Shown here piece by piece: positions 30,117 to 58,597 of a DNA stretch of 64,000 bases; the first letter of the stretch is position 1; every line of letters begins with the position of its first letter. The DNA is from Kiloniellales bacterium (GTDB taxonomy: Bacteria > Pseudomonadota > Alphaproteobacteria > Kiloniellales > JAKSBE01): the NCBI GenBank assembly GCA_030066685.1, contig JASJBF010000032.1, forward strand, positions 62,001-126,000, read 5' to 3'. The translations under genes and the position numbers were made by a program. The notes beneath the pieces were generated by a model, which saw only the letters and a program-made list of their open reading frames with translations, ran no database searches and had not been told where the DNA came from.

Positions 30117-31220
30117 TCAGGCGGCAAGCTGGTTCAACTTCTCCATCAGATAGTCGAGGTCGTCCGCCGCCAGGTCGTCGTACTGAGTCAGGATGCGCGA
30201 CAGCATGCGCGAGATGAAGCGCTCGCGGTCGTTGTCCTTGAGGTCGTAGTCGGTCTCCTGGATCACATCGACCGCGACCCGGATCGCCGGGAAGAGCTTC
30301 TCCGGCAGCCCGGTCTTGAGGTAGAGCGATTGCAGACCGAGCGAACCCTCGTCGTGGATCAGCAGCCTGGCGTTTTTCACGGGAATCTGCGCGAGGCGCG
30401 CCATCGCCGCCTCGAAGAAGGCGAGATCGCCCATGCAGAGCGCCCGCAGGACCAGCGAGGACGAGAGCCGGCCCTTCTTGTGAAGCTGGGCGACCAGGGT
30501 CTCGATATCGGTGACCGTCCGGCCGCTGGCCACCAGGTCGACGGTGGCCCGCTCTCGGGTCTGCAGGATCAGGTTGCAGATCTTGTCCGGGCTCAGGTTG
30601 CCTTCCTGGAGCAAAAAGGTCTCCAGCCGCTCCGAGATCGCGTTCACCACGCGCTCCGCCACATCGACCGGCATGTTGTTACGCCTGGAAAGTGAATCGG
30701 AGACGGCCTCGCTCTCGCCGTACTGGACCATGACCCGGTCGAAGGAGTTCTCGGTCAGTTCGGCGCCTTCGTTGGCGACCAGGCGCGCCACCGCCTTCTC
30801 GTTGCCGGTGTCGATCAGGCTGTCGGCGACCTGGGTGGATATCGTCCGGCGTTGCGCGATGGCAGTCTGCTTTTCGGAGTCCTGGCTCTGGATGATGTCG
30901 ATCAGGTCTTCGTCGGTCAGCACCTCCGAGGACTTGAGGATCGGCAGCGCTACGGAGGTCACGTCCTGCGCCAACTTCAGGGCGATGTCGTGGGACAGGC
31001 CCGCGGCCGCCTGCAGGTTCTTCGACAAAGACTCGCGGACTCGGACCGAGACGTCCTGAGCCATCAGCCGGAAGATCGCTTCGGCCTGCTCTCGTTCCGC
31101 GTCCGTCAGCTCGCCGTCGGCGAACTCGGCGGCGACCTTGCCGGCCGTTTCGGCCCGGGTTTCATCCGAGCTGTCCGCCACGAGGCGGGCGACATCTTCC
31201 TTGGTGAGTTTATGTGCCAT
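30117..31220 (-). CDS. DUF2336 domain protein
   Basis: A 367-residue soluble protein consisting of a DUF2336 region of repeated helices (HEAT-like in appearance). Characteristic segments are SVRVRESLSKNL, SSEVLTDEDLIDIIQS, LVANEGAELTENSFDRV and a C-terminal block LSSSLVLRALCMGDLAFFEAAM. The family is common in Rhodospirillales and uncharacterised; it often lies near signalling genes. The second family member at 50459 shares the ILxxSxxLTDxDLIxI block. An exact CtrA box lies about 100 bp upstream of this start, suggesting cell-cycle control. No ribosome site is obvious. Confidence 0.85.
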   Translation of the reverse strand: MAHKLTKEDVARLVADSSDETRAETAGKVAAEFADGELTDAEREQAEAIFRLMAQDVSVRVRESLSKNLQAAAGLSHDIALKLAQDVTSVALPILKSSEVLTDEDLIDIIQSQDSEKQTAIAQRRTISTQVADSLIDTGNEKAVARLVANEGAELTENSFDRVMVQYGESEAVSDSLSRRNNMPVDVAERVVNAISERLETFLLQEGNLSPDKICNLILQTRERATVDLVASGRTVTDIETLVAQLHKKGRLSSSLVLRALCMGDLAFFEAAMARLAQIPVKNARLLIHDEGSLGLQSLYLKTGLPEKLFPAIRVAVDVIQETDYDLKDNDRERFISRMLSRILTQYDDLAADDLDYLMEKLNQLAA

Positions 31221-41627: not shown

Positions 41628-42143
41628 ATGAACCTGAAGGACCACATCGCCGAGGTGCCGGACTTCCCGGAGCCCGGGATCCTGTTCTACGACATCTCGC
41701 CGCTGCTGGCCCATCCCGAGGCCTGGCAGGAGACCGTCCGGCAGCTCTCGGAAGCGGTGGCCGCCCAGAAGCCCGATGTCCTGGCCGGCATCGAATCGCG
41801 CGGATTCCTGGTCGCAGCGCCGCTCGCCCTGCAGCTCAACCTCGGCTTCGTGATGATCCGGAAGAAGAACAAGCTGCCCGGGGCAACCATTCCCTACACC
41901 TACGACCTGGAATACGGCAGCGACAGCATCGAGATTCAGGCCAACGCGGTGCAGCCCGGCCAGAAGGTCGCCGTACTCGACGACCTGCTCGCCACCGGCG
42001 GCACCATGAACGCCAGCGTCCAGCTCCTGCGCAGCGTCGGTGCCGAGGTCACCGGCGGCGCCGGCATCATCGAGCTCACCTTCCTCAAGGGCCGAGAGCG
42101 GCTGGATATCCCTTTCACCTCGATCCTGACCTACGACGAATAG
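41628..42143 (+). CDS. apt: Adenine phosphoribosyltransferase
   Basis: A 171-residue purine-salvage enzyme (adenine + PRPP to AMP). The PRPP-binding motif [16 protein letters not shown] is at about residues 114-129, preceded by [14 protein letters not shown] and [12 protein letters not shown], both typical of Apt. The length is normal. AGGGGGAAA lies before the ATG. The last 13 bases overlap the end of the convergent amidase gene on the other strand. Confidence 0.96.
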
Positions 42144-44854: not shown

Positions 44855-46426
44855 ATGGCCGGCAGGGGGGCGGGCAAGGGGGCGGTGGCGGCGGGGCATC
44901 CCGCCACGGCGGCGGCGGCCCGGGAGATCATCGAGGACGGCGGCAGCGCCGTCGACGGCGCCCTGGGCGCCATGTGCGCGGCCTGCGTCGCCGAGCCGGT
45001 CCTGGCCTCCCTGGGCGGCGGCGGCTTCTTCCTCGCTGCCGGACCCGAGACGCCGGCGGTGCTCTACGACTTCTTCGTCGAGACGCCCTTGAGACGCCGG
45101 CCGGTCGAGGAGATCGAGTTCTTCCCGATCGAGGCCGACTTCGGCCCGGCGACCCAGGAGTTCCACATCGGCCTGGGCGCCATGGCGACGCCCGGCTTCC
45201 CGCGCGGCCTCTTCGAGGTCCATCGGCAGCTCGGGCGGCTGCCCATGGCCCGGATCCTGAAGCCGGCCATCGCCCTGGCCCGCAACGGCATAGCCCTGCG
45301 CGCCAGCGAAGCCTTCATCTTCCAGGTCGTGGCGCCGGTCTTCACCGCCAGCGAGGCGGCCCGCGAGGTCTATGGCTCCGGCGAGGGCCTGCTGAAGGAA
45401 GGCGAGATCCTGCGCCAGCCGGAGCTGGCCGAGACCTTGGAAGCCCTGGCCGAAGAGGGCGACCGCCTGTTCTACGAAGGCGAGATCGCGGCCGCGCTGA
45501 CCCGCTTCTGCCGCGAGACCGGCGGGCAGATCACCGAAGCGGACCTGGGACGCTACGCCGCCGTCCGGCGCCGCCCCCTGGAGCGCCGCTATCGCGGCGC
45601 CCGCGTCCTGACTAACCCGCCGCCCTCGACCGGCGGCATCCTGATCGCCTTCGCCCTGGACCTGCTGTCCGGCCGGGCATGGGCGCCCGAGGACTTCGAT
45701 TCCCCCGAAAGGCTGGCGGCTTTGGCCCGGGTCATGGCCCTGACCGACCGGGCGCGGCTGGAATCCCGGCTCCACGAGGCAATGGGCCAAGCCGAGGAGG
45801 ACGCCGCGCTGCGGCGGCTCTTCGATCCGGACCTCGTGGCGCGCTACCGGGCTCGGGTCGAAGGACGTCCCGCGGCCCGGCGCGGCACGACGCACATCAG
45901 CGTCGTCGACGGGGCCGGCAATCTGGCGGCCGTCACCCTGTCCAACGGCGAGGGTTGCGGCCGCCTGCTGCCCAGGACCGGTATCATGCTCAACAACATG
46001 CTGGGCGAGCAGGACCTGAACCCGCGCGGCTTCCACGCCTGGCCGGAGGGGGTGCGCCTGGCTTCCATGATGGCGCCGAGCCTGGCCTTTCTCGAGCACG
46101 GCCGGATCGCCGCCCTGGGCTCGGGCGGCTCCAACCGAATCCGCACCGCGGTCCTTCAGGTGCTGCTGAACCTGATCGACTTCGAGCAGCCGGCCGAGCA
46201 GGCGGTGGCCGCCCCGCGGCTCCACGTCGAGCGCGACCAGGCGGAACTCGAGACCGGCTTCCCGGAGGCAGCCGTCGAGGCGGCGCGCGGCGAGGTCACC
46301 AGGCTGGCGACTTGGCCGCCCAGGAACCTCTTCTTCGGGGGCGTCCACGTCGCCACCCGGGACCGTAGCGGCCGCTTCCAGGCCTCGGGCGACCCTCGGC
46401 GCAGCGGCGTCGGCGTCACCTTCTAG
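44855..46426 (+). CDS. ggt: Gamma-glutamyltransferase family protein
   Basis: A 523-residue member of the Ntn-hydrolase gamma-glutamyltransferase family. The self-processing site is RRGTTHISVVDGAGN, with the catalytic threonine near residue 345. Other blocks are LASLGGGGFFLAA, TNPPPSTGG and SNGEGCG. Unlike secreted Ggt, it has no signal peptide, so it should stay in the cytoplasm; the N-terminus (AAGHPATAAAAREIIEDGGSAVDGALGAM) is the ordinary family start. It follows an amidase gene. A cytoplasmic relative could hydrolyse imported gamma-glutamyl compounds or cephalosporin-like amides. Confidence 0.88.
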   Translation: MAGRGAGKGAVAAGHPATAAAAREIIEDGGSAVDGALGAMCAACVAEPVLASLGGGGFFLAAGPETPAVLYDFFVETPLRRRPVEEIEFFPIEADFGPATQEFHIGLGAMATPGFPRGLFEVHRQLGRLPMARILKPAIALARNGIALRASEAFIFQVVAPVFTASEAAREVYGSGEGLLKEGEILRQPELAETLEALAEEGDRLFYEGEIAAALTRFCRETGGQITEADLGRYAAVRRRPLERRYRGARVLTNPPPSTGGILIAFALDLLSGRAWAPEDFDSPERLAALARVMALTDRARLESRLHEAMGQAEEDAALRRLFDPDLVARYRARVEGRPAARRGTTHISVVDGAGNLAAVTLSNGEGCGRLLPRTGIMLNNMLGEQDLNPRGFHAWPEGVRLASMMAPSLAFLEHGRIAALGSGGSNRIRTAVLQVLLNLIDFEQPAEQAVAAPRLHVERDQAELETGFPEAAVEAARGEVTRLATWPPRNLFFGGVHVATRDRSGRFQASGDPRRSGVGVTF

Positions 46427-46474
46427 ATCAAACTGCGCTCAATTGGACTCGATTGAGCGCAGATAATTTGATCT
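46425..46474. repeat. Long hairpin following ggt
   Basis: A nested inverted repeat. An outer 8-bp stem AGATCAAA/TTTGATCT (46425-46432 and 46467-46474) encloses an 11-bp stem CTGCGCTCAAT/ATTGAGCGCAG (46433-46443 and 46452-46462) with an 8-base loop; a 4-base ATAA bulge separates the two on the right. It begins inside the ggt stop codon. It lies directly next to the second hairpin. Confidence 0.65.
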
Positions 46475-46487
46475 ATTCCATATAGAT

Positions 46488-46523
46488 AGAGCAGCCTGCG
46501 TTCGAATGAACGCAGGCTGCTCT
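46488..46523. terminator. Strong bidirectional hairpin terminator between ggt and gcrA
   Basis: A perfect 16-bp stem: AGAGCAGCCTGCGTTC, loop GAAT, GAACGCAGGCTGCTCT. It is located where two transcription units converge. The sides are not strongly T-rich, but the stem is the most stable in the area and is symmetric, fitting a shared terminator. Confidence 0.75.
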
Positions 46524-46636
46524 TGGCCGGGGGCGCCCACTTGGCAGGGTCAAGAGCCGCTGAACGGACAGAAAAAGGGGGCCGGCGTTGCCCGCCGGCC
46601 CCATCTCAAGCAACCCGTCGAGAGTTACGCGGGAAG

Positions 46637-47053
46637 TCAGGCGGCCTCGTCGCCGCTGCTGCGGCTGCGCGTGATGTAGGCGCGCGCACAATGTTCTTCG
46701 CAATAAGGCTTGTTCTCGATCGCGGGGCCGCCACAGAAGTGGAAGTCCGGCTCGCCCGGATCGCCGATCGGCCACATGCAGCTGCGGCCCTTGGCATAGC
46801 GGACGGCGCGCCGGGGCGCGGGCGCCGCCGGACGAGTGATCACGGTCTTGGTCACCGGCTGAACCGGCTTGGAAATGCGCCGCGGCATGGTGCTCTGTTT
46901 GATCGGCGATGGACGCGACGGCAGCTGCATTCGGTGCGCCTTGCCCACCACGGCGTTCTTCGATACCCCCAGCATCTTGCCGATGGCCGAAGCGCTGTGC
47001 CCCGCCTGCCAGAGGCGGATGAGCTCCGCGACGCGTTCCTCTGTCCAGGTCAT
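46637..47053 (-). CDS. gcrA: Cell-cycle regulator GcrA
   Basis: A 138-residue DNA-binding regulator that works with CcrM methylation (GANTC) and sigma-70 RNA polymerase in alphaproteobacterial cell-cycle control. The N-terminal helix-turn-helix MTWTEERVAELIRLWQAG is the family start, followed by LGVSKNAVVGKAHRMQLPSR. The C-terminal part holds the conserved CMWPIGDPGEPDFHFCGGPA and PYCEEHCARAY cysteine/histidine segments. GGGAGGGG lies about 11 bases before the ATG. It converges with ggt. Its presence supports reading the GANTC sites and CtrA boxes in this window as functional. Confidence 0.96.
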   Translation of the reverse strand: MTWTEERVAELIRLWQAGHSASAIGKMLGVSKNAVVGKAHRMQLPSRPSPIKQSTMPRRISKPVQPVTKTVITRPAAPAPRRAVRYAKGRSCMWPIGDPGEPDFHFCGGPAIENKPYCEEHCARAYITRSRSSGDEAA

Positions 47054-47274
47054 GATTTTCCAAGCCCCTCCCGTCAAAATACCAGATGTTGGGTAACCCG
47101 CTAGATCTTGCGGATCATCAATATGAAGGCACGATATACGGTAGGTTTTCCCTTGTCCACCCGGGAGTGCGCCAATTTGCCCACAGGGATGCGGCCGCAG
47201 AAACGGTGACGGCGGTCTCGGCATTCGCTGTACGGGGGCTTGGCAACGCGGGCGGCAGGTTGGAGTGTCTGGCT

Positions 47275-48021
47275 ATGTTCGTGCTGTTCACCGATTTCGG
47301 ACTGGAAGGGCCCTACATCGGCCAGGTGAAGGCCGCCCTCTGGCAAGGCGCGCCGGATCGTCCGGTGATCGACCTGCTCTCTGACGCGCCGCCCTTCGAC
47401 CCGCGCTCGGGCGCCTATCTGCTGGCGGCCTACGCGGCGGCGATGCCGCCCGGCTGCCTGATACTGGGCGTGGTCGACCCCGGTGTCGGCGGGCCGCGGC
47501 AGGCGCTCGCCGTCAAGGCAGGGGGCCGCTGGTTCCTGGGGCCCGACAACGGCCTGCTGGCGATCGCCGCGCGGCGCGCCGGCGACGCCCGGGTCTGGCA
47601 GATCGACTGGCGCGGGCCGGGGGTCTCGGCGTCCTTTCACGGCCGGGACGTCTTCGCGCCGCTTGCCGCGCGCCTGGCGCGGGGCGAGGCCCTCCCGGGC
47701 CGCGAGGTGCCCGCGGACACCATGGTCGGCGCGGACTGGCCGGCGGACCTTGACCGGATCGTCTACATCGACCGCTTCGGCAACGCCATGACCGGCCTAC
47801 GCGCGGCCGCCCTCGGCCCGGGCGCCGTGCTGGAAGCGGGCGGCCGCCGGCTGGCGCGCGCCGACAGCTTTTTTCAGGTGCCGGTCGGGGCGACCTTCTG
47901 GTATGAGAACGCCAACGGCCTAGCGGAGATCGCCGTCAACCAGGGACGCGCAGACCGGGTCCTGGGCCTGGGCATCGGCACACAGATCCGGACGGTCGCG
48001 GCTACAACAGGCGAGGATTGA
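47275..48021 (+). CDS. SAM hydroxide adenosyltransferase (DUF62)
   Basis: A 248-residue member of the SAM hydroxide adenosyltransferase (chlorinase/fluorinase-like, formerly DUF62) family, which converts S-adenosylmethionine plus water to adenosine and methionine. Family blocks are MFVLFTDFGLEGPYIGQVKA, GVVDPGVGGPRQALAV and GPDNGLLAIAARR. The FHGRDVFAPLAARLARG and IVYIDRFGNAMTGL segments are also typical. The halogenase-specific insertion of fluorinase is absent, so water is the likely nucleophile. The next gene starts one base after its stop. Confidence 0.9.
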   Translation: MFVLFTDFGLEGPYIGQVKAALWQGAPDRPVIDLLSDAPPFDPRSGAYLLAAYAAAMPPGCLILGVVDPGVGGPRQALAVKAGGRWFLGPDNGLLAIAARRAGDARVWQIDWRGPGVSASFHGRDVFAPLAARLARGEALPGREVPADTMVGADWPADLDRIVYIDRFGNAMTGLRAAALGPGAVLEAGGRRLARADSFFQVPVGATFWYENANGLAEIAVNQGRADRVLGLGIGTQIRTVAATTGED

Positions 48022-48588
48022 ATGGCGGAGGCAAGGCCGGCAGCGGCCGGACGCGGCCTGTGGCTGCCGATCGGCGCCATGGCCGCGGTCATCACGCTCT
48101 CGAACGTGGCGGTCAACTTCCAGATCAACGACTGGCTGACCTGGGGCGCCTTCACCTATCCGGTCGCCTTCCTGGTCACCGACCTGACCAACCGCGCCCT
48201 GGGCAGCGAGTCCGCCCGCCGGGTCGTCTACGCCGGCTTCGCGGTGGGCGTCCTCTGCTCCATCGTCGCCGGGCTGCTGGGGCTGTCGACGGTCCGCATC
48301 GCGCTCGCCTCGGGCGCCGCCTTCCTGATCGCGCAGCTGCTCGACATCCTGATCTTCGACCGGTTGCGGCGCGCCGCCTGGTGGAAGGCGCCCTTCGTCT
48401 CCTCCTCGCTCGCGTCCTTCGTCGACACCCTGATGTTCTTTGGCCTGGCCTTCGCCTTCACCCCCGTGCCCTGGCTCACCCTGGCGCTGGGCGACTACGG
48501 CGTGAAGCTGGCCATGGCGCTGGTCCTGCTTCTGCCCTTCCGGGCGCTGATGTCGGCGAGCGAGCCCACGGCGGCCAAGACGTCCTGA
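48022..48588 (+). CDS. yhhQ: Queuosine-precursor transporter (VUT/YhhQ family)
   Basis: A 188-residue membrane protein with about six spans. The family motif TYPVAFLVTDLTNRALG at about residues 47-63 is diagnostic, and SLASFVDTLMFFGLAF follows near residue 132. The family imports 7-cyano-7-deazaguanine or a related queuosine precursor for tRNA modification. It begins directly after the SAM hydroxide adenosyltransferase stop, so the two are cotranscribed and translationally coupled. The later modification step uses SAM, which is the only evident biochemical link between the two. Confidence 0.92.
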   Translation: MAEARPAAAGRGLWLPIGAMAAVITLSNVAVNFQINDWLTWGAFTYPVAFLVTDLTNRALGSESARRVVYAGFAVGVLCSIVAGLLGLSTVRIALASGAAFLIAQLLDILIFDRLRRAAWWKAPFVSSSLASFVDTLMFFGLAFAFTPVPWLTLALGDYGVKLAMALVLLLPFRALMSASEPTAAKTS

Positions 48589-48727
48589 GCCGGGCCACGA
48601 GAGCGGCGGTGGAGATGATCGCTCAGAAGCGGGGCGAAGCGGCCGCCGTTCATCGCTGATTAACCCTAACAAAATACTCTTGGAGGATTGGTCGGCTAAC
48701 CCCATCGCAAAGGAGCCTGCCAGGCCC

Positions 48728-50326
48728 ATGCGCATCGAGCTCTCCCCGCAACGCCTCCACGCCTTGGGACGCATCGCCGTCGTCGTCCTAACCGCGACGC
48801 TGGTCGCCGTGATCTTCGCCAACTTCCTGATGCCCACGTCCGGCGAGACAACCGGGACCGCGCTGCTCGACTCCTGGCCGCCGATCAGCGCCGCGACCGG
48901 CGCCGCCCTGGCCGCCAGCCTCGCCTGCCTTTGCGCCTTCATCCTCCTGGTCCGCCGCAATCGCGCCCTGGCGCGCCTGGCCCAGGCCAGCGAGGCTCTG
49001 GCCAACGGCGATTTCTCGATCGAGATCCCGGCCTGCGAGCGCAGCGACAACCTCGGCGTCGCCGCCCGCGCCATCGCCCTGATCCGCGCCCACGCCGAGG
49101 AATGGCGCAGCCGCAGCAAGCAGGACCGCGACCGTGCGGACAGCCTGGGCGCCCGCCTCGCCCGGCTCGAAGCGGCGCTGGACCAGAGCGACCAGGCCCT
49201 GGCGGTCATCGACCTCGACCTCAGGATCACCTTCTGCAACCGCCGCTTCCTGGAGAAGCTGGAGCTGCCCAACAGCTTCGCGGCCGGCCATGCGCGGCTC
49301 GAGAGCCTGCTCCTGCACGCGTCCGCCCGCGGGCTCGTGCCGGCCACCGAGGTCGAGAGCCAGATGGCCCGCTGGGCCGCCCTGGCGCGCCAGACCCAGC
49401 CGGGCCACAGCGTGCTGACCTGCGCCGACGGCACCCGCTTGGAGCTGCGCCTGAAGCCGAGTCCGAAGATCAGCCTGGTCCTGCTACATCGCGCGCCGGC
49501 GGCCAAGGCCGCCCGGCCCGCGGCAAGCGCCGTCGAGGCGACCCGGCCGCCCGCCGCGACGGTTGCGTCGGAGGCGACGGCGCCGGCCGCCGAAGCGGAG
49601 CCCCGCAAACCCGATCTGCCGGCGGCCACCTCGGCGCCGGACGAGGCGGTACGCGGCGGCCTGGCCGCAGAAACCCAGGCGCCAGACAGCTTGGCCAAGA
49701 AGCCCACGCCGGACCTCACCGAAGGCGCCGCCGCGCGCTCCGAAGCGACGCCGGCGCAAGAGACGGCCCAGCTTCCGCCGCCGCCTTCGGCGCTGGCGAG
49801 CACCGCGGCGCACCCCGCGGCGCGGCGCAACTTCCGCGTCCTCCTGGTCGAAGGCGACAAGTCGGCACAGCTGCAGGCGATCACGATCCTGGACAAGGCC
49901 GGCCACTGGGTCGACCTGACGACCAGCGGCCAGGAAGCCGTGAAGGCGATCGCCAGGCGCAGCTACGACGCCGTGCTGATCGAACTGGAGCTGAGCGACA
50001 TCTCCGGCTTCGACGTCGCGCGCCTCGCGCGGCGGCTGAACGGCCCCTCCGCGCAGGTGCCGATCATCGCCATGGTCGCGGACAGGATGCGTTTCGCGGA
50101 GTGCCTCGACGCCGGGATGGACGACATCCTGCTGAAGCCGCTCCGGGCGGAGGACGTGGCCCGCAAGCTCCAGAGCTGCATCGGTCCGGCGACCGGCCAG
50201 GCGCAGCTCTCCGGCTCTCCGGCCGCGGCCGCCGCGCCCGACTGCAGCCGGCGGGACGGTGCCCTCGGCGCCGCCGTCGCGGACCAGCCGGAAACCGCGA
50301 CCCTGCGCAGCGCGAGCGGCGGCTGA
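48728..50326 (+). CDS. Two-span HAMP-PAS protein with degenerate receiver domain
   Basis: A 532-residue membrane signalling protein. Two transmembrane helices (about residues 13-33 and 57-76) are followed by a HAMP-like linker, a PAS region with FCNRRFLEKLEL (about 150-255), a 110-residue Ala/Pro/Glu-rich linker and a C-terminal receiver fold (about 368-485). The receiver is degenerate: the phosphoacceptor aspartate is Glu419 (LIELELSDISG), the second acidic residue is Gly376 in LLVEGDK, and the switch threonine is Val450; only Lys470 is kept. It should therefore not be phosphorylated normally. No kinase domain is present. AAAGGAG lies upstream with slightly long spacing. Confidence 0.8.
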   Translation: MRIELSPQRLHALGRIAVVVLTATLVAVIFANFLMPTSGETTGTALLDSWPPISAATGAALAASLACLCAFILLVRRNRALARLAQASEALANGDFSIEIPACERSDNLGVAARAIALIRAHAEEWRSRSKQDRDRADSLGARLARLEAALDQSDQALAVIDLDLRITFCNRRFLEKLELPNSFAAGHARLESLLLHASARGLVPATEVESQMARWAALARQTQPGHSVLTCADGTRLELRLKPSPKISLVLLHRAPAAKAARPAASAVEATRPPAATVASEATAPAAEAEPRKPDLPAATSAPDEAVRGGLAAETQAPDSLAKKPTPDLTEGAAARSEATPAQETAQLPPPPSALASTAAHPAARRNFRVLLVEGDKSAQLQAITILDKAGHWVDLTTSGQEAVKAIARRSYDAVLIELELSDISGFDVARLARRLNGPSAQVPIIAMVADRMRFAECLDAGMDDILLKPLRAEDVARKLQSCIGPATGQAQLSGSPAAAAAPDCSRRDGALGAAVADQPETATLRSASGG

Positions 50327-50458
50327 TCGACGCCCGCCCGCAGCGATAGATCCTGAAATAGAGGCTGATATCCGACCGGGGTCACTTTTCCCCCTGCGAA
50401 TCGTCTCTATACTCCCCAAATCAGTGGCCTGATCCGGTGCTGGGATGGGGAGTGCCAG

Positions 50459-53122
50459 ATGTCCCGCCTTGGGTTCGGACCCAGGAATTTCCGCTTTGGT
50501 TTGGCGTGCCTCGGTGTCGCTGTCGGCCTCTCAGCGCCGCTCGGAGCGGATCCGAGGCCGGAGGACCATCCTGCCGATGAGGCGGCCAGCGCCTCCGCTC
50601 CCTCGCAGCGGGTCGGCGCTGTCGCCGCGCGATCGGCCGAGGCCGATCAGCTTGCCGAGAAAAACGGAGGTCTCAGCGAAGCCGATCTGCGCCGTTCGAT
50701 CCACGAGGTCGGCCGGCTCGGCAGATTCTTCGCGCGCCTGGCGTCCTTAGACCCCGAAGCCGCACGGCGCAGCTATTGGCGAGACCTGCAGCTGGCCTAC
50801 GCCGCCACCGCCGACCGCCTCGCAGGCCTCCTCGACAGCGGCGGCCTGACCATCGCCGATCTCCCGGCGGGACAGAAAAGCGCACGCGGCGGGACCGGCA
50901 TCGTGGTCGACGCCACCCTTGACGGCACCTGGGGCACCGAGTCGCCGAACGGCAGCCCTGCAGCCGGCCAGGACGACTGGAGCCATAACCACCGCCTGAC
51001 CGTGGCGGCTTTCGAAGCCTTTGCCGGCCTGGAGGGCTACGACCGCTGGTTCTGGTTCGACGCCCACCTCAAGCGGTCGCCGACCGCGGGCGTGATGGAG
51101 CCGGGCAGCGAAGCGGTCGCCGGTCCCCTGCTGACCCGCTATTGGTTCGCCAAGGACGAGCACCTCCGGGCCACGGTCGCCGCCCGGGCGGCGGAAGGAC
51201 CGGGGTCTCGCGCGCTCTGGACGGTCCGCCGCGATGAGCTCGCGATCCAAGCCGGCCGGGCCGTCGAGCGGACCAAGGCCGAGCTCGGCGCGGCCTGGCA
51301 TGCTGCACTGGCGGCCAATTGGCAGCAGCAACTTGCGACGTCCGAGGCCGTGGCCGAGAGCCTCGCCGGGGCCGAGGTCCTGGCCGACTTGATTCCGGAG
51401 GCCCGGACCCAGGTCGTGGAAGACAGCCGGGACCCGGCCGGGACCGAAGAGATCGCGGTCCTGCGCGGCCGCCTCGCCGACCTTGAGGGCCGGATCGGCA
51501 AGCTCGACGCCCAGCTGCGGCAAAGCCGGGACGAGGCGAGCCGGCTGGAGACGGAGCTGGCCGCAGCACGCGATCGGGCCGGAGCGCGCGAGAACAGGGA
51601 CGACCGCTTGACCCGCGCCTATGCAGAGCTGGAGGCGGCGCAGCGCGCCGACCAGAGACGGCTTGCCGAGCTGGAGACGGAGCGCGCCGCGGAGCGCCGC
51701 CGCATCGCGGAGCTGGAGCAGAGCTTGTCGGCGATGCTCGCTCAGCTCGATGACAGCCGCAGCGAGATCGATCGCTATCAGAGCCAGATCCAGGAGAACC
51801 AGCAAGAGCTGAGCCGCTACCGCGACGAGATGCGCGCGACCGGCGAGGAGCTGTCGCGCTATCGCGAGGAACTGGACGCCGCCCAGGACCTGCAACCGGA
51901 ATCGGCCGTATCGCTGGTCCAGTCCCTCGGCAGCCGTCAAACCGCCGTGATCGGCTTGGCCGTTGTCTTGTTGCTGCTCTCGATGATGACCATCGCCCTT
52001 CTGCTGCGCCGGACCACGGCGGACGGTGTGGCGGCCCGGGCGCCGCTGGCCCAGGGCCGCGACGGAGAGGGACCACGTGACGGCCGACGCGCGGCGCCGA
52101 GCCGCCGGACCAGCCCGGAGCGCTCGGAGAGCGAAGCCCTGGCCGCACAGAAGGACCCGCCGCGCGATCGCCTTCTGGCTTTGGCGGGAGACCGGATCGA
52201 AGTCGCACTTCCGATACTGGTCCACAGCGCGGCGCTGACCGACGCCGACCTGATCGCTATCGTTCATGGCGCCACGACTCAGCATCGCATGGCGATCGCC
52301 ATGCGCCGCGGGCTCGGCGAGCGGGTGGTCGATGCCTTGGTCGAGGCCGCTGAGGTCAAGGTCGCTGCCGCGGTCCTGCAGAACGCCGCGGCAGAGATCA
52401 CGTCCGAGACCTACGGCAAGCTGGCCAGGCAGGCCGAAATTCAGCCCGCCTTGAAGGCGGCCCTCCTCGAGCGCCCCGGCCTGCCCGCGGCAATCCGGGC
52501 ACGCCTCTCGGGGCCCGAAGAGCCGGCCGCGCCGAGCGAAGCGCCACGGCCGGACCTGGCGGCCAAGCTGCAGGCGGCGGCCGCCGAGCTCGATGCCGCG
52601 GCCGCCGAGCAGGAAGCCGCGGAACGGAACCGAAAGGCAGCCGCAGCGACCACCACGGCCCGGGCGCAAGCCGGCCCCGAAGCGGCCGAAATCGCGCAAC
52701 CTGAAGAGCCGCCAGGAGGTGCGGCGCGCGATACGGCCGCCAGCGGCGAGGTGCCGCCCCACGCCCTGATCGAAGCCCTGCGCCAAGGCAAGATGGAGCT
52801 TTTCGAAGCGCTGTTCGGCAAGATGACCGGCCTGCGGCCGCCGCGCCTGCAACAGGTGGTCTACGGCGGCGGCGGCGAAAACCTGGCGGTCGCCTGCCGC
52901 GCGCTCGGGCTCGGCAAACCGATCATGACCTCGATCTTCATCTGGAGCCGCAAGGGCCGAGAAGACCTGGGTGCGGTGAACCCGCGCGAGCTGTCAAACG
53001 CCATGACCGCCTTCGACGCGACCTCGCCCGAAACGGCGCGGGAAACGGTCGCGGCCTGGATCGCCGGCGACGCCATCCCCGGCGAGTGGGACCCCAGGCT
53101 GCACGGCCCGGCGGCGGAATAG
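50459..53122 (+). CDS. Membrane coiled-coil protein with C-terminal DUF2336
   Basis: An 887-residue protein of unusual architecture. A signal peptide (about residues 11-30) leads into a periplasmic domain of about 300 residues, then a long heptad-rich coiled coil at about 330-478 (many Leu/Glu/Arg repeats), one transmembrane helix (496-516), a basic linker and a cytoplasmic DUF2336 region (about 570-870). The DUF2336 part shares IVLxSxxLTDxDLIxI-type and LIEALRQGKMELFEALFGKM-type blocks with the protein at 30117, but an Ala/Glu-rich insertion splits it at about 685-760. GGGGAG precedes the ATG. It lies between a pseudo-receiver gene and hpnN. Function unknown; the layout suggests a sensor or scaffold linking periplasm to cytoplasm. 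Confidence 0.85.
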   Translation: MSRLGFGPRNFRFGLACLGVAVGLSAPLGADPRPEDHPADEAASASAPSQRVGAVAARSAEADQLAEKNGGLSEADLRRSIHEVGRLGRFFARLASLDPEAARRSYWRDLQLAYAATADRLAGLLDSGGLTIADLPAGQKSARGGTGIVVDATLDGTWGTESPNGSPAAGQDDWSHNHRLTVAAFEAFAGLEGYDRWFWFDAHLKRSPTAGVMEPGSEAVAGPLLTRYWFAKDEHLRATVAARAAEGPGSRALWTVRRDELAIQAGRAVERTKAELGAAWHAALAANWQQQLATSEAVAESLAGAEVLADLIPEARTQVVEDSRDPAGTEEIAVLRGRLADLEGRIGKLDAQLRQSRDEASRLETELAAARDRAGARENRDDRLTRAYAELEAAQRADQRRLAELETERAAERRRIAELEQSLSAMLAQLDDSRSEIDRYQSQIQENQQELSRYRDEMRATGEELSRYREELDAAQDLQPESAVSLVQSLGSRQTAVIGLAVVLLLLSMMTIALLLRRTTADGVAARAPLAQGRDGEGPRDGRRAAPSRRTSPERSESEALAAQKDPPRDRLLALAGDRIEVALPILVHSAALTDADLIAIVHGATTQHRMAIAMRRGLGERVVDALVEAAEVKVAAAVLQNAAAEITSETYGKLARQAEIQPALKAALLERPGLPAAIRARLSGPEEPAAPSEAPRPDLAAKLQAAAAELDAAAAEQEAAERNRKAAAATTTARAQAGPEAAEIAQPEEPPGGAARDTAASGEVPPHALIEALRQGKMELFEALFGKMTGLRPPRLQQVVYGGGGENLAVACRALGLGKPIMTSIFIWSRKGREDLGAVNPRELSNAMTAFDATSPETARETVAAWIAGDAIPGEWDPRLHGPAAE

Positions 53123-53332
53123 ACGCTCTTCCGGGCGCGACCGCTTGCCCGGCAGATTCGCGCTGTGGCAGCGGGCCGGCCCGAAGCAGGCTTGGCTTGT
53201 CAGTGCCAGCGCCATCCTTTAGACAGCGGCGCCAGGCCGTCGGGCCCGGGCCGGACCGGCGGGGCGCAGGCCGGGCCGCAGCGACTCGCGACGGCTTGTC
53301 ACCCGTGAAGGCACCCTCGGATCGGTGAGATC

Positions 53333-55993
53333 GTGATCGAAAAGCTGGCCCAAAGGACGACCGCGGCACTGTCGGGGTGGGTCGGCCTGGTCTGCCGGCG
53401 GGCCTGGCTCGTGGTCCTCCTGGCGGTCGTCGCGACCGGCTTCTCGGCGACCTATACGGCCCGGAACTTCGCCATCAACACCGACACGCGGGACATGATC
53501 TCCAGCGAGGTCGACTTCCGCCGGAACGACGATGCCTTCGCCGCCGCCTTCCCGCAGTACGAGGACCTGATCGTCGCCGTGATCGACGGCCCGAACGCCG
53601 AGGCTGCCGAGGCCGCGGCCGAGCGGCTGACCTTGGCGATGGCGGCGCGCCCCGATCTCTTCACCGAACTGCGCCATCCCGGCGGCGAGGCCTTCTTCCG
53701 CGACAACGCCTTCCTATTCCTGAGCCTTCCGGCGCTCGCCGACCTGGCCGATCGCCTGGCCGGGGCGGAGCCGCTGCTCGGCGCCCTGAGCCAGGACATG
53801 AACCTGCGCGGCCTGTTCACGGTGCTGTCCCAGGCGCTCGACGGCGCCGCGGTGCTCGACGACACGGCCCCCCTGCCCGAGGTGCTGATTGCGATCGCGG
53901 GACAGAGCGACGCCACGGCCGGGGGCAGACCGGGCGCGCTGTCCTGGCGCGGCCTTCTGGCCGCGGATCCCTCAATGGCCTCCACGCGCAGCTTCGTGAC
54001 CACCCGGCCGGTCCTGGACCACGGCTCGTTGAAGCCGGCCGAGAAGCCGATCGCCGAGCTGCGCCGGCTGGCCGAAACCCTCGGGATCGATCGGAGTCAG
54101 GGCCTGCGGCTGCGCCTGACCGGCCCCGCCGCGCTGGACCACGAGGAGTTCGAGAGCGTCGAGGTCGGCGGCGCCACCGCCGGCCTGATCTCGCTCTGCG
54201 CCGTTGCGATCCTCCTGATCCTGGGCCTGCGGTCGGTCTCGCTGGTCTTCGCGACCATCACGACCCTACTGATCGGGCTGACTTGGACCGCGGCCTTCGC
54301 CATGGCGGCCATCGGCCACCTCAACATCATTTCGGTGGCCTTCGCGGTGCTCTTCGTCGGCCTGGGAGTCGATTTCGGCATCCACTTCGCGTTGCGGGCG
54401 CGCGAAGCCCTGGGTGAGACCGGGGGTGAGACCGGGGGTGAGACCGGCGACAAGATCGCGGCCCTGGAGCGGGCCGGCGCCAGCGTCGGCGGTGCGCTTG
54501 CCCTATCGGCCCTCTGTGCCGCCGTCGGATTTTTCGCCTTCCTGCCGACGAACTACAAGGGCCTGGCGGAACTGGGCCTGATCTCGGGCACCGGCATGTT
54601 CATCGCGCTCTTCGTCAACCTCACCCTGCTGCCCGCCCTGATGAGGCTGCTGCCCCTGCCGAAGGCGGCGGCGCGCGAAGCAGAGCAAGTCGGCGGCCCG
54701 ATCGAGCGCATGGTCCTGCGCCACGGGCGCGCGATCATCGTCCTGGCGTCCCTGACCGCGCTGGTCGGGCTGGCCGCCGCGCCCTTCGCACGCTTCGACT
54801 TCAATCCCCTGAACCTCAAGGACCCCGCGACCGAGTCCGTCGCCACCCTGCTGGAGCTGACCCGCGATCCCGCGAGCTCGCCCTACGCCATCGACATCCT
54901 GGCGCCGGACCTCGCGGCCGCACGGGGCATCGCCGCACGGCTCGACGCCCTGCCCGAAGTCAGCCACAGCCTGACCCTGTCGAGCTTCGTGCCGGAGGAA
55001 CAGGAGGCCAAGCTGGAGCTGATCGACGAGATCGCCCTCTTCATGGGTCCGGCCCTCGCATCCGGGCCGGCGCGCGAGACGCTCGACCCCGAGGCACGGT
55101 CGGCGACCCTGGCGTCCTTCCGGACGGACCTCGGCGATCTCCAGGCGGCCGGCGTGACCGATCCGGCGCTGGCAGGAGCCCTGGAAGGCCTGGCGGCAGC
55201 GCTCGACCGCCTGGCTGCGGCCCCGGGTGACGGCGCGACGGCGCTGGCCCGCCTCGAGGACCGCCTGCTGCGCCATCTGCCCAGGTCGCTCGACGACCTG
55301 CGCCGAGCGCTCGGCGCCCAGGCGGTGACCCTCGACGACCTGCCTTCGGCGCTACGCCGCGACTGGTTGACGGCCGAGGGCCGAGCCCGGATCCAGGTGC
55401 AGCCTCAAGGCGGCCTGGCCGACAACGTCGAGCTACGCCGCTTCGCCGAGGCGGTCCTGGCGGTCGAGCCGGCCGCCTCGGGCACGCCGGTGGTGATCAC
55501 CGAGGCCGGCAAGGCCGTGGTCCAGGCTTTCTTCGAAGCGAGCGGCCTCGCCCTGGCCGGCATACTGCTCCTGCTCGCCTTTGCCCTCAGGCGGCTCGAG
55601 GACGCCGCCCTGGTTCTGGCGCCCCTGGCGCTGGCGGCGGCGATCACCACCGCGGCCTCGGTGGCCTTCGGCCTGGCCTTCAACTTCGCCAACGTGATCG
55701 TCTTGCCGCTGCTGCTCGGCCTCGGCGTCGCCAGCGGTATCCACCTGGTGATGCGCCGACGCTACGAGCGCGACCAAAGCAAACTGCTGCGCACCAGCAC
55801 CTCGCGGGCGGTGATGTTCAGCGCCTTGACCACCATCGCCTCCTTCGGAAGCCTCGCCGTCTCCGGCCATCCCGGCATGACCAGCATGGGCCAGCTCCTG
55901 ACCATCGCGATCTCCAGCACGCTGATCTGCACCCTGATCGTCCTGCCCAGCCTGATGGCACGCCGCGCCGCGCCCGACCAGGCAGGTGCTTGA
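53333..55993 (+). CDS. hpnN: HpnN-type RND/MMPL transporter (hopanoid)
   Basis: An 886-residue RND-superfamily protein with two halves, each with a large periplasmic domain and a cluster of helices. It opens with the cytoplasmic start and first span, then NFAINTDTRDMISSEVDFRR, typical of HpnN proteins that move hopanoids to the outer membrane. The central span set has FVGLGVDFGIHFALRARE. Between residues 361 and 373 lies a GETG repeat encoded by three 12-bp copies. The start is GTG. The next gene (methyltransferase) begins about 14 bases after the stop. No squalene-hopene cyclase is in the window. Confidence 0.9.
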   Translation: MIEKLAQRTTAALSGWVGLVCRRAWLVVLLAVVATGFSATYTARNFAINTDTRDMISSEVDFRRNDDAFAAAFPQYEDLIVAVIDGPNAEAAEAAAERLTLAMAARPDLFTELRHPGGEAFFRDNAFLFLSLPALADLADRLAGAEPLLGALSQDMNLRGLFTVLSQALDGAAVLDDTAPLPEVLIAIAGQSDATAGGRPGALSWRGLLAADPSMASTRSFVTTRPVLDHGSLKPAEKPIAELRRLAETLGIDRSQGLRLRLTGPAALDHEEFESVEVGGATAGLISLCAVAILLILGLRSVSLVFATITTLLIGLTWTAAFAMAAIGHLNIISVAFAVLFVGLGVDFGIHFALRAREALGETGGETGGETGDKIAALERAGASVGGALALSALCAAVGFFAFLPTNYKGLAELGLISGTGMFIALFVNLTLLPALMRLLPLPKAAAREAEQVGGPIERMVLRHGRAIIVLASLTALVGLAAAPFARFDFNPLNLKDPATESVATLLELTRDPASSPYAIDILAPDLAAARGIAARLDALPEVSHSLTLSSFVPEEQEAKLELIDEIALFMGPALASGPARETLDPEARSATLASFRTDLGDLQAAGVTDPALAGALEGLAAALDRLAAAPGDGATALARLEDRLLRHLPRSLDDLRRALGAQAVTLDDLPSALRRDWLTAEGRARIQVQPQGGLADNVELRRFAEAVLAVEPAASGTPVVITEAGKAVVQAFFEASGLALAGILLLLAFALRRLEDAALVLAPLALAAAITTAASVAFGLAFNFANVIVLPLLLGLGVASGIHLVMRRRYERDQSKLLRTSTSRAVMFSALTTIASFGSLAVSGHPGMTSMGQLLTIAISSTLICTLIVLPSLMARRAAPDQAGA
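54413..54448. repeat. Tandem 12-bp repeats inside hpnN
   Basis: Three consecutive copies of GGTGAGACCGGG (the last ends in C), encoding three GETG units in a predicted cytoplasmic loop. Since 12 is a multiple of 3, change in copy number would keep the frame. Such in-frame repeats are prone to slippage. Confidence 0.8.
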
Positions 55994-56855: not shown

Positions 56856-58559
56856 TCAGAGCAGATGGGCGCCGTCCTGGCCTTCCGTCTCCACCGGCGG
56901 CCCTTCGGGGCGTCCCTGCTTCCAGGAGATCCGGATTCCGACGCCCTGGCCCGGCAATGGCACGCTGGCGCGGACAGCCGCGCCTTCGGCGGGCTCCCGC
57001 GCTGCTGCCGCCGGGGGCCGGGCGCGCAGCCGGATCTGGTTGAGCAGCTCGAAGTGATTCGGCAATTGGGCGACGAGGCCGGCCTTCTGCTGCTCGACCC
57101 AGTCCTCGAAGCGCCGCCATTCGGATTCCTCCAGCCCTTCGGCCTGGGCGAAGACCGTGTCGTCGTAGAAGTGCTTGCCGAAGAGCACGATGAGGTAGCT
57201 CCAGTAGCCGAAGAGGTAGGTGCGCTCGAAGTCGGACTCTTCCGGCAGGCGTTCCCGCCAGGCCGCCAGCCTGGTCTTCAGGCTGTCGGGTACCTCCAGC
57301 TCCTCCTGGACCGCCTGCCAATAAGCGCTGTCGCGGCGGTTCGAGGTCAGGTAGTGCAGGGCGATGAAGTCGCGCACCTCCTCATAGAGGCCCCGCGTCC
57401 TCTCGTTGTAGCGGGCCTGCAGCGCCGGATCGAAGTCGCGGTCCGGGAGGTTGGCGGCCAGCCAGCGCAGCGACGCTTCGATGATGAAGATGGCGGTGGA
57501 CTCGAGCGGCTCGATGAAGCCCCCGGAAAGGCCGACGGCGATGCAGTTTCCGACCCAGGTCCGCCGGGCCCGGCCGATGCGCATGGGGATGACCCGCGGC
57601 TCGGCGCCCGCGCCCTCGCTGCCCAGGTGCTGCAGGAACTCGTCGATCGCCTCCTGGTCGCTGCGGAAGCGGCTGGAGAAGACGTAGCCCGTCCCGATGC
57701 GCGAGTAGAGCGGCACCCGCCAGACCCAGCCGGCGCCCAGCGCCGTGGAACGGGTGCAGGGCTCGAGCCCGCTGACGTCGCGATGCGGGATCTGCACCGC
57801 CAGCGCCTTGTCGTTGAAGAGGTGGCGCGAGAAGGGCTCGAAGGGCTCCTCCAGGGCCTGCTGCAGGATCAGGCTGCGGAAGCCGGTGCAGTCGATCACC
57901 AGCTCGACCGGTCGCCGGCCCTGCGTGCGCAGGATCAGGGCGGAGATGTGGCCGCGGTCGTCGCGCTCCAGGTCGTCGACGTCGTCGAGCAGGTGCAGCA
58001 CGCCGCGCTCCACCGCCACCTCGCGCAGCAGGGCGGCGAAGAGGCCGGCGTCCAGGTGGTAGGCGTAGCCGACCGCATAGTCGTAGTCGTCCTGATCGAC
58101 CGTCTTGGGGCCGCGGCGTTCGTCGATCAGGCGGGTCGAGGGGGAGAGCGCGTCGCCGAGGTTGGCGAGCCGGCCACCGCGGCCGAAGCGGTGGTAGTGG
58201 TAGGCCGGGTTGACGCCCTGGATCGCGACCCCAAGGCCGTCGAAGGGGTGGTCGTAGCAAGCGGGCGAGCCGTCGGGTCGCTTGTCCCAGTTGACGAAGC
58301 GGACGCCGAGCTTGAAGGAGGCGTTGCAGCGCTCGATGAAGGTCGCCTCGGAGATGTCGAGCTGCCTCAGCAGCTCGCGCATGCCCGGCACGGTGGCCTC
58401 GCCGACCCCGACCGTCGGCACATTGGGCGATTCCACCAGGGTGACCCGGATCGGCGGCTTGCCGGGCCGCTTGTTGAGCCGCGTGATCAGGAAGACCGCC
58501 GCCATCCAGCCGGCCGTCCCGCCGCCGACGATGGTGATCTCGCGGATGGGCTCCGCCAT
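56856..58559 (-). CDS. Flavin-dependent tryptophan halogenase family protein
   Basis: A 567-residue protein of the flavin-dependent tryptophan-halogenase family. The FAD motif is VGGGTAGW at residues 11-18. The lysine expected to form chloramine is K83 in NASFKLGVRFVNW. The halogenase fingerprint WxWxIP appears as WVWRVP at 278-283, and the catalytic glutamate region is FIEPLEST at 349-355. All hallmark residues are kept, so an active halogenase is plausible. AGGAGG precedes the ATG at 58559; a longer open frame upstream runs into nhaD antisense and is not real. Substrate and halide are unknown, and no biosynthetic cluster surrounds it. Confidence 0.88.
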   Translation of the reverse strand: MAEPIREITIVGGGTAGWMAAVFLITRLNKRPGKPPIRVTLVESPNVPTVGVGEATVPGMRELLRQLDISEATFIERCNASFKLGVRFVNWDKRPDGSPACYDHPFDGLGVAIQGVNPAYHYHRFGRGGRLANLGDALSPSTRLIDERRGPKTVDQDDYDYAVGYAYHLDAGLFAALLREVAVERGVLHLLDDVDDLERDDRGHISALILRTQGRRPVELVIDCTGFRSLILQQALEEPFEPFSRHLFNDKALAVQIPHRDVSGLEPCTRSTALGAGWVWRVPLYSRIGTGYVFSSRFRSDQEAIDEFLQHLGSEGAGAEPRVIPMRIGRARRTWVGNCIAVGLSGGFIEPLESTAIFIIEASLRWLAANLPDRDFDPALQARYNERTRGLYEEVRDFIALHYLTSNRRDSAYWQAVQEELEVPDSLKTRLAAWRERLPEESDFERTYLFGYWSYLIVLFGKHFYDDTVFAQAEGLEESEWRRFEDWVEQQKAGLVAQLPNHFELLNQIRLRARPPAAAAREPAEGAAVRASVPLPGQGVGIRISWKQGRPEGPPVETEGQDGAHLL

Positions 58560-58597
58560 GCACGCCTCCTGGCTGTCGAATCGATCGGAAGTGAAGC

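Follow-up and report, generated by a model that had tools for sequence, protein, structure and literature searches.

Two genes lie side by side on the + strand of the window (the whole 64,000-nucleotide stretch of Kiloniellales DNA analysed here). The first, at 48728–50326, encodes a membrane pseudo-receiver protein of 532 aa with the order TM-TM-HAMP-like-PAS_7-linker-receiver, and the second, at 50459–53122, encodes a coiled-coil DUF2336 membrane protein of 887 aa. The mechanical open reading frame of the receiver gene opens at a TTG at 48680; the ATG at 48728 is taken as the start because both sister species begin there (MRIELSPQRL) and the bases upstream are conserved. The pair is followed by hpnN (53333–55993, + strand). 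The hpnN product is recognized as HpnN by TIGR03480 (961.2 bits, cut-off 751.85), and with 783.8 of 1100 bits it stays short of the stricter model NF052374.

An earlier note on this DNA had interpreted the pair as a two-gene signalling module. A check of the open reading frames confirms that the two genes adjoin, run in the same direction and are separated by a 132-bp spacer (50327–50458). Membrane anchoring of both products, also claimed, agrees with hydropathy, which predicts TM stretches in each. From the hydropathy of both proteins, the receiver and DUF2336 domains are expected inside the cell and residues ~30–496 of the DUF2336 protein outside.

The 132-bp spacer contains invariant CTATACTC and GGGGAGTG blocks. 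Mean column identity is 85% in this spacer, as against 68% before the receiver gene and 70% before hpnN. The presence of a TATACT block in a conserved spacer suggests that the receiver and DUF2336 genes may not share one transcript. The TATACT block did not pass a scan for sigma-70-type promoters, which returned one site, on the opposite strand at 47131–47159, and no intrinsic terminator was reported in the spacer. A structural RNA in the spacers was considered and rejected, as no Rfam family reached threshold across 46400–54000. Upstream of the receiver gene, in 48589–48727, the sequence GATTAACCCTAA is identical in the three species, and it may resemble a CtrA half-site. A gene for the cell-cycle regulator GcrA (PF07750) is found close by at 46637–47224 on the − strand. 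On the other side, at approximately 56856–58563 (−), there is a reading frame with a GGGTAGWMAA motif, which presumably recalls the flavin-dependent tryptophan halogenases.

The pseudo-receiver protein

Hydropathy places two TM segments near the N-terminus of the first protein, at residues 16–34 (48773–48829; modelled helix 7–34) and 57–75 (48896–48952; modelled helix 55–92). These are followed by a HAMP-like region at residues 78–116 (48959–49075), which scores 19.1 bits with the Pfam HAMP model and is under the cut-off of 25, and by a PAS_7 domain at residues 151–254 (49178–49489; Pfam 57.6 bits, cut-off 27). The PAS and HAMP regions did not figure in the earlier account of the pair. An Ala/Pro-rich linker of variable length (49496–49819), with pLDDT mostly below 50, leads to the receiver domain at residues 366–487 (49823–50188).

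This domain is recognized as a receiver by Response_reg (PF00072; 55.4 bits, cut-off 30.2) and its model shows all of the (beta-alpha)5 fold, with a pLDDT of ~97. Its active-site positions are occupied by E375 and G376, E419, V450 and K470. Glycine 376, at the position of the second metal-binding Asp, and V450, at the Thr position, are invariant in 3/3 orthologues. In the alignment, all 23 comparison receivers have Asp, Asp and Thr/Ser where the window protein has G376, E419 and V450. The first acidic residue (E375) and the lysine (K470) are kept. The phospho-acceptor codon (49982–49984) is GAA (Glu) in the window and GAC (Asp) in both sister species, i.e. a one-base difference, and the Glu at 419 could have truly arisen in evolution or reflect a single wrong base in the assembly.

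One account (PMC12632262) defines pseudo-receivers as receivers in which at least one of five conserved residues is missing; by this definition the window domain is, judged by its residues, a pseudo-receiver, and the label given to it earlier holds. It should be pointed out that the label needs one correction. The phospho-acceptor Asp, absent from the window species, is present in two sister species, and the aligned residues thus indicate that the domain is not simply an aspartate-less receiver (ALR). Position D+4 holds Ser in place of Pro, and at K-3 there is Ile where an aromatic residue would be needed; with these residues, the Y-T coupling in receivers that is described in the same account (PMC12632262) would not be available to the window receiver.

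Comparison of orthologues gives pN/pS values of 0.04–0.14 for the receiver, 0.07–0.12 for HAMP and 0.10–0.24 for PAS, and of 0.69–0.98 for the Ala/Pro linker. The receiver, PAS and HAMP regions are, by this measure, under strong purifying selection, and the low ratio in the receiver domain points to its being kept by selection even though it is without normal chemistry. The contrast between domains and linker also rules out a chance open reading frame.

The closest receivers to the window receiver are the C-terminal receivers of hybrid kinases, and a search of the window protein at E ≤ 1 gave no match to HisKA or HATPase_c, the two domains that a hybrid histidine kinase would have. The idea that the protein is a fragment of the kinases that accompany DUF2336 genes (see below) was rejected, with no similarity found: there was no phmmer match at E ≤ 10 to 17 kinases near DUF2336 genes, and BLAST similarity to the kinase-like protein of genus g20 was at chance level only.

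The DUF2336 protein and the neighbourhood of its gene

The 887-aa protein begins with a hydrophobic stretch (residues 11–29 by hydropathy). An N-terminal domain at residues 68–302 (50660–51364), predicted to be periplasmic, is followed by a coiled coil at residues 326–478 (51434–51892), for which there are long modelled helices and coiled-coil family matches, and by one strong hydropathy-predicted TM segment at residues 497–515 (51947–52003). The C-terminal part matches DUF2336 (PF10098; 142.6 bits, cut-off 34.6), the match being split in two by an insert. The first half of the domain (profile positions 1–102; 52202–52507) has HEAT-like helices, and the second half (profile positions 96–261; 52550–53050) is kept by all coiled-coil members. 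No PDB sequence match was found for the N-terminal domain at E ≤ 1, nor a Foldseek match for the whole model at E ≤ 0.001. Residues 545–690 match helical-repeat proteins with Z of 7–9, a moderate HEAT match to a common arrangement, which is no proof. One relative (L079:84-3179; 1031 aa) has a coiled coil lengthened by heptad-rich repeats that are nearly identical and follow one another, so that coiled-coil length varies greatly between relatives.

This architecture, with a periplasmic domain, a long coiled coil of very variable length, a TM segment and a cytoplasmic adaptor, raises the question of whether the protein's main role is that of a scaffold at the pole or the envelope, with the pseudo-receiver as one of several clients. 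The first half of its DUF2336 region (residues 558–684) matches the SpbR model NF052659 with 75.9 bits, and PodJ, a scaffold protein of Caulobacter, attaches to the PAS sensor of PleC, whose kinase activity it represses (PMC8980812). Set against this, the SpbR score is far under the cut-off of 400, and the coiled coil is predicted to be periplasmic. A scaffold role as the main function appears unlikely; it is compatible with the combined model favoured below, from which it differs in what it takes the main function to be.

A profile of the TM-HAMP-PAS part of the receiver protein (residues 1–254) gives full-length matches in 3/61 genomes of the order, these three belonging to the window's genus, and the next-best match is partial (1.6e-11); no full-length relative of the receiver protein was found outside the genus among the 61 genomes. 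The N-terminal domain of the DUF2336 protein is found in 15/61 genomes and 4/28 genera (three genomes in g1, eight in g22, two in g14 and two in g20). Among 385 sampled genomes of the class, its profile finds only the window genome and one marginal partial match (3.7e-4).

The proposal of a conserved neighbourhood can be held against these genomes. It is borne out inside the genus (3/61 genomes of the order) and fails in all others: the other 12 genomes with a coiled-coil DUF2336 gene show no receiver in the stretches examined around it, and 10 of them (g22 and g14) show no two-component gene there. In g22 the coiled-coil gene comes after an ABC transporter operon (binding protein, permease, ATPase), as scanned in 2/8 loci, the other six having the same gene order and sizes. 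In g14 it comes after an epimerase gene and an opposite-strand gene, with functions read by eye. Inside the genus, one relative (G001) is collinear with the window at 42–53 kb, from the gene at 42131 to the DUF2336 gene, which in that assembly is split over two contigs. The block includes an amidase and a gamma-glutamyltranspeptidase (named by eye), a SAM hydrolase and a queuosine-precursor transporter. The other relative (G002) is collinear over the receiver, DUF2336 and hpnN genes. Since a whole block is collinear inside the genus, the adjacency of the receiver and DUF2336 genes there is weak evidence.

Perhaps history alone has made neighbours of the two genes. The target of the pseudo-receiver would in that case be encoded elsewhere in the genome, e.g. 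a hybrid or DivJ/PleC-type kinase, and the DUF2336 protein would keep an unrelated or kinase-directed role. The restriction of the pair to one genus, the collinearity in G001 and G002, which lets adjacency arise with no function behind it, the spacer with a conserved block of its own, and the 10/12 other coiled-coil genomes in which no two-component gene was found beside the coiled-coil gene are all consistent with this explanation. It is a real possibility, though it falls short of even odds, and the ancestry of the DUF2336 domain, taken up in the next section, speaks against it.

The earlier note had also suggested, from the position of hpnN, that the signal may concern the envelope or the hopanoid state. 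In each of the three members of the genus, hpnN comes next after the DUF2336 gene, and one can imagine the receiver protein, the DUF2336 protein and HpnN as one envelope or hopanoid unit. A hpnN is above cut-off in 30/61 genomes of the order; it adjoins the coiled-coil DUF2336 gene in 0/12 of the other genomes, nine of which have it on another contig or ~1.6 Mb away, while in three no hpnN reached the cut-off. With no link found outside the genus, the connection with hopanoids is not supported, and such a unit is very improbable.

Kinase-linked relatives of the DUF2336 domain

The DUF2336 domain had been described as being without known partner. This has to be corrected, as the subfamily to which the window domain belongs is linked to kinases by genome neighbourhood. 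When the best DUF2336 relative in each genome outside the genus was taken, with likeness to the window protein as the sole criterion (L041-L067), 23/27 had a same-strand HisKA kinase downstream within 600 bp, and 2/4 of the misses had less than 820 bp of downstream sequence.

Two surveys give a comparable picture, with distances measured between stop-to-stop open reading frames. In the order, 67 DUF2336 frames at 64 loci, hand-picked for spread over genera, had 17 HisKA kinases within 0.6 kb (79.7 kb of flank) and 2 at 0.6–7 kb (683 kb of flank); L157 (a 200-base placeholder), L183 and L193 were left out. In the class, 66 frames at 60 loci had 11 within 0.6 kb (79.2 kb of flank) and 2 at 0.6–7 kb (528 kb of flank). 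About every second listed row was taken here by hand with genomes of the order excluded, so that these counts apply to high-scoring rows only, and they include two kinases counted twice (L260, L282), each between two DUF2336 genes. At these two loci the flanking DUF2336 genes are on the same strand as the kinase gene. Most of the survey kinases lie directly downstream of DUF2336 on the same strand, overlapping it or a few bases apart.

The arrangement of a DUF2336 gene followed by a PAS-HisKA-HATPase kinase gene recurs through the loci collected (L041-L067, L113-L172, L224-L283), in many families of the class, and one example is found in the window's own genome (L116; DUF2336 gene at 200588–201490 of contig C10). 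All of four kinases from DUF2336 loci that were compared with Pfam have HisKA and HATPase_c, the latter at 3e-24 or better. For three DUF2336-linked kinases compared with NCBIfam, the best models include PdhS or DivJ, with scores under the cut-off.

Phylogeny places the window gene in this subfamily. In a tree of 130 DUF2336 domains, the window domain falls in a set of 42 rows with a support of 98, which holds 20 of the 23 kinase-followed rows and 14 rows without a two-component neighbour. A tree of the C-halves (140 rows) joins all 13 coiled-coil proteins placed in it, from four genera, in one clade (99/90); the clade is present in 99% of bootstrap trees and lies inside a set (97/83) with 15 kinase-followed rows. 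Both trees are of modest resolution, and that of the C-halves has few columns and an unsettled bootstrap. Thus the window gene groups with the kinase-linked subfamily, but it is hpnN, not a kinase gene, that lies directly downstream of it.

In 2/2 genomes of genus g20 the coiled-coil gene is 84 and ~130 bp downstream of a HisKA gene, in which the HELRTP motif is present. No HATPase_c match was found at E ≤ 1 in these kinase-like genes (L191:2548-3930, L192:475-1905). The best matches of the g20 protein among all open reading frames compared are DUF2336-linked kinases; two of the top 45 matches (L100, L107) are from loci not chosen for DUF2336. At the L191 locus, the next gene upstream of the kinase-like gene has a cyclic-nucleotide-binding/POPDC-like domain.

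The simplest history that these sequences suggest is that, within this order, a DUF2336 gene from a kinase operon turned a single time into a gene for a membrane coiled-coil protein, the kinase having become degenerate in g20 and being absent elsewhere. With a kinase-linked subfamily and a degenerate kinase in g20, a two-component partner for the coiled-coil DUF2336 protein is reasonable. The same facts, i.e. a subfamily kinase-linked class-wide and a degenerate kinase upstream in g20, argue against neighbourhood by history only, in that a two-component neighbour does not look random here.

Other DUF2336 genes have other surroundings. The window itself has a second, stand-alone one 20 kb off, at 30117–31220 (− strand; 243 bits), from a branch without kinase neighbours. 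In one family of the order (f7), a CpdR-like single-domain receiver gene and a DUF2336 gene from a different branch are arranged head-to-head in 7/7 genomes with a receiver match. The match was at E ≤ 1e-30 in 7 of 9 genomes (L122, L125, L172, L178, L179, L180, L181), with CpdR as the best NCBIfam match, under its cut-off. L178-L181 were added once the cpdR neighbour was known, so that 4/7 of the close receiver matches are there by selection; the kinase counts are unaffected.

Possible mechanism and known systems

Gene neighbourhood and phylogeny support the proposal that DUF2336 may serve as a kinase accessory domain. In the combined model preferred here, to which a probability of roughly 0.4 is assigned, DUF2336 would be an accessory domain of two-component systems, and its membrane version would work with degenerate two-component parts. 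Ordinary members of the subfamily would come first in operons of two genes, the second encoding a PAS-HisKA-HATPase histidine kinase that most resembles PdhS/DivJ, and the window protein would be a membrane-anchored coiled-coil offshoot. Its cytoplasmic DUF2336 domain would most likely bind two-component proteins, through kinase or receiver surfaces. The adjacent HAMP-PAS protein appears to bear, on a long flexible tether, a receiver-shaped domain unable to use the normal phosphorylation chemistry, which is probably a phosphorylation-independent binding module. Input at the PAS domain or the membrane part might change the reach or exposure of the pseudo-receiver, which may then dock on the DUF2336 domain or compete for the kinase that DUF2336 serves; this is the direction of signalling that we infer. 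Through its large periplasmic and coiled-coil part, the DUF2336 protein may link the module to the envelope.

A direct partnership of the pseudo-receiver and the DUF2336 protein is plausible, and the two might interact physically. As a whole, the two-gene signalling module of the earlier note is partly supported.

In a broader sense, DUF2336 may be an unrecognized two-component adaptor that is spread through the class Alphaproteobacteria and shares operons with PdhS/DivJ-like kinases. A single rebuilding in this order would have turned it into a transmembrane coiled-coil scaffold with degenerate two-component parts as its partners: an ATPase-less kinase in one genus, a membrane pseudo-receiver in a second. 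Such modules would connect the envelope with the kinase network and do so without phosphotransfer. This is put forward tentatively, with the odds leaning against it. The domain is found in 198/385 sampled genomes of the class, and no described function for DUF2336/PF10098 was found in the literature searched, which was mostly without subscription journals, so the operon may have been published. The class-wide operon with PdhS/DivJ-like kinases offers DUF2336 a concrete and testable partner. The window pair and the ATPase-less kinase of g20 are a naturally occurring example of two-component parts that selection has retained although their chemistry was lost. The pseudo-receiver adds a member to the known pseudo-receivers, and the membrane coiled-coil DUF2336 protein is a variation on a kinase-linked family.

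Among known systems, PdhS/DivJ-type kinases (NF041593, NF050805) are among the best NCBIfam matches of the DUF2336-adjacent kinases. All scores are far under the equivalog cut-offs, and the adjacent kinases are therefore similar to PdhS/DivJ and are not these proteins. Unlike the kinase-linked loci, the window has no kinase of this type beside its DUF2336 gene. The SpbR family (NF052659) has the first DUF2336 half in common with the window protein, which adds a periplasmic domain, a coiled coil and a TM segment. SpbR of Caulobacter is a DUF2336 protein and enters here as an analogy for a polar or envelope scaffold, not as evidence. The comparison of PodJ with the window DUF2336 protein in topology is presumptive. 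Both are coiled-coil proteins, and PodJ of Caulobacter regulates a PAS-containing kinase of this class through its PAS domain (PMC8980812); their domains differ.

The pseudo-receivers covered in PMC12632262 have a non-acidic residue at the second metal-binding position in ~80% of cases, as does the window protein, and the bacterial ones, like it, have no aromatic residue at K-3. Unlike pseudo-receivers generally in that account, the window protein has a TM-HAMP-like-PAS-pseudo-receiver arrangement without a kinase core. Work on Rhodobacter sphaeroides describes a further protein, Osp, that is also alphaproteobacterial, receiver-shaped and missing active-site residues (PMC9430884). Osp is soluble, consists of a single domain and has neither of the two acidic residues nor the Lys. 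The window protein sits in the membrane and has HAMP-like and PAS regions as well; here the first acidic residue and the Lys are still present, and it is the second acidic residue and the Thr that are missing. Osp keeps the phospho-site Asp, as do the two sister species of the window. Osp binds the CckA transmitter and inhibits its autophosphorylation, i.e. it inhibits an alphaproteobacterial kinase directly, without being phosphorylated (PMC9430884).
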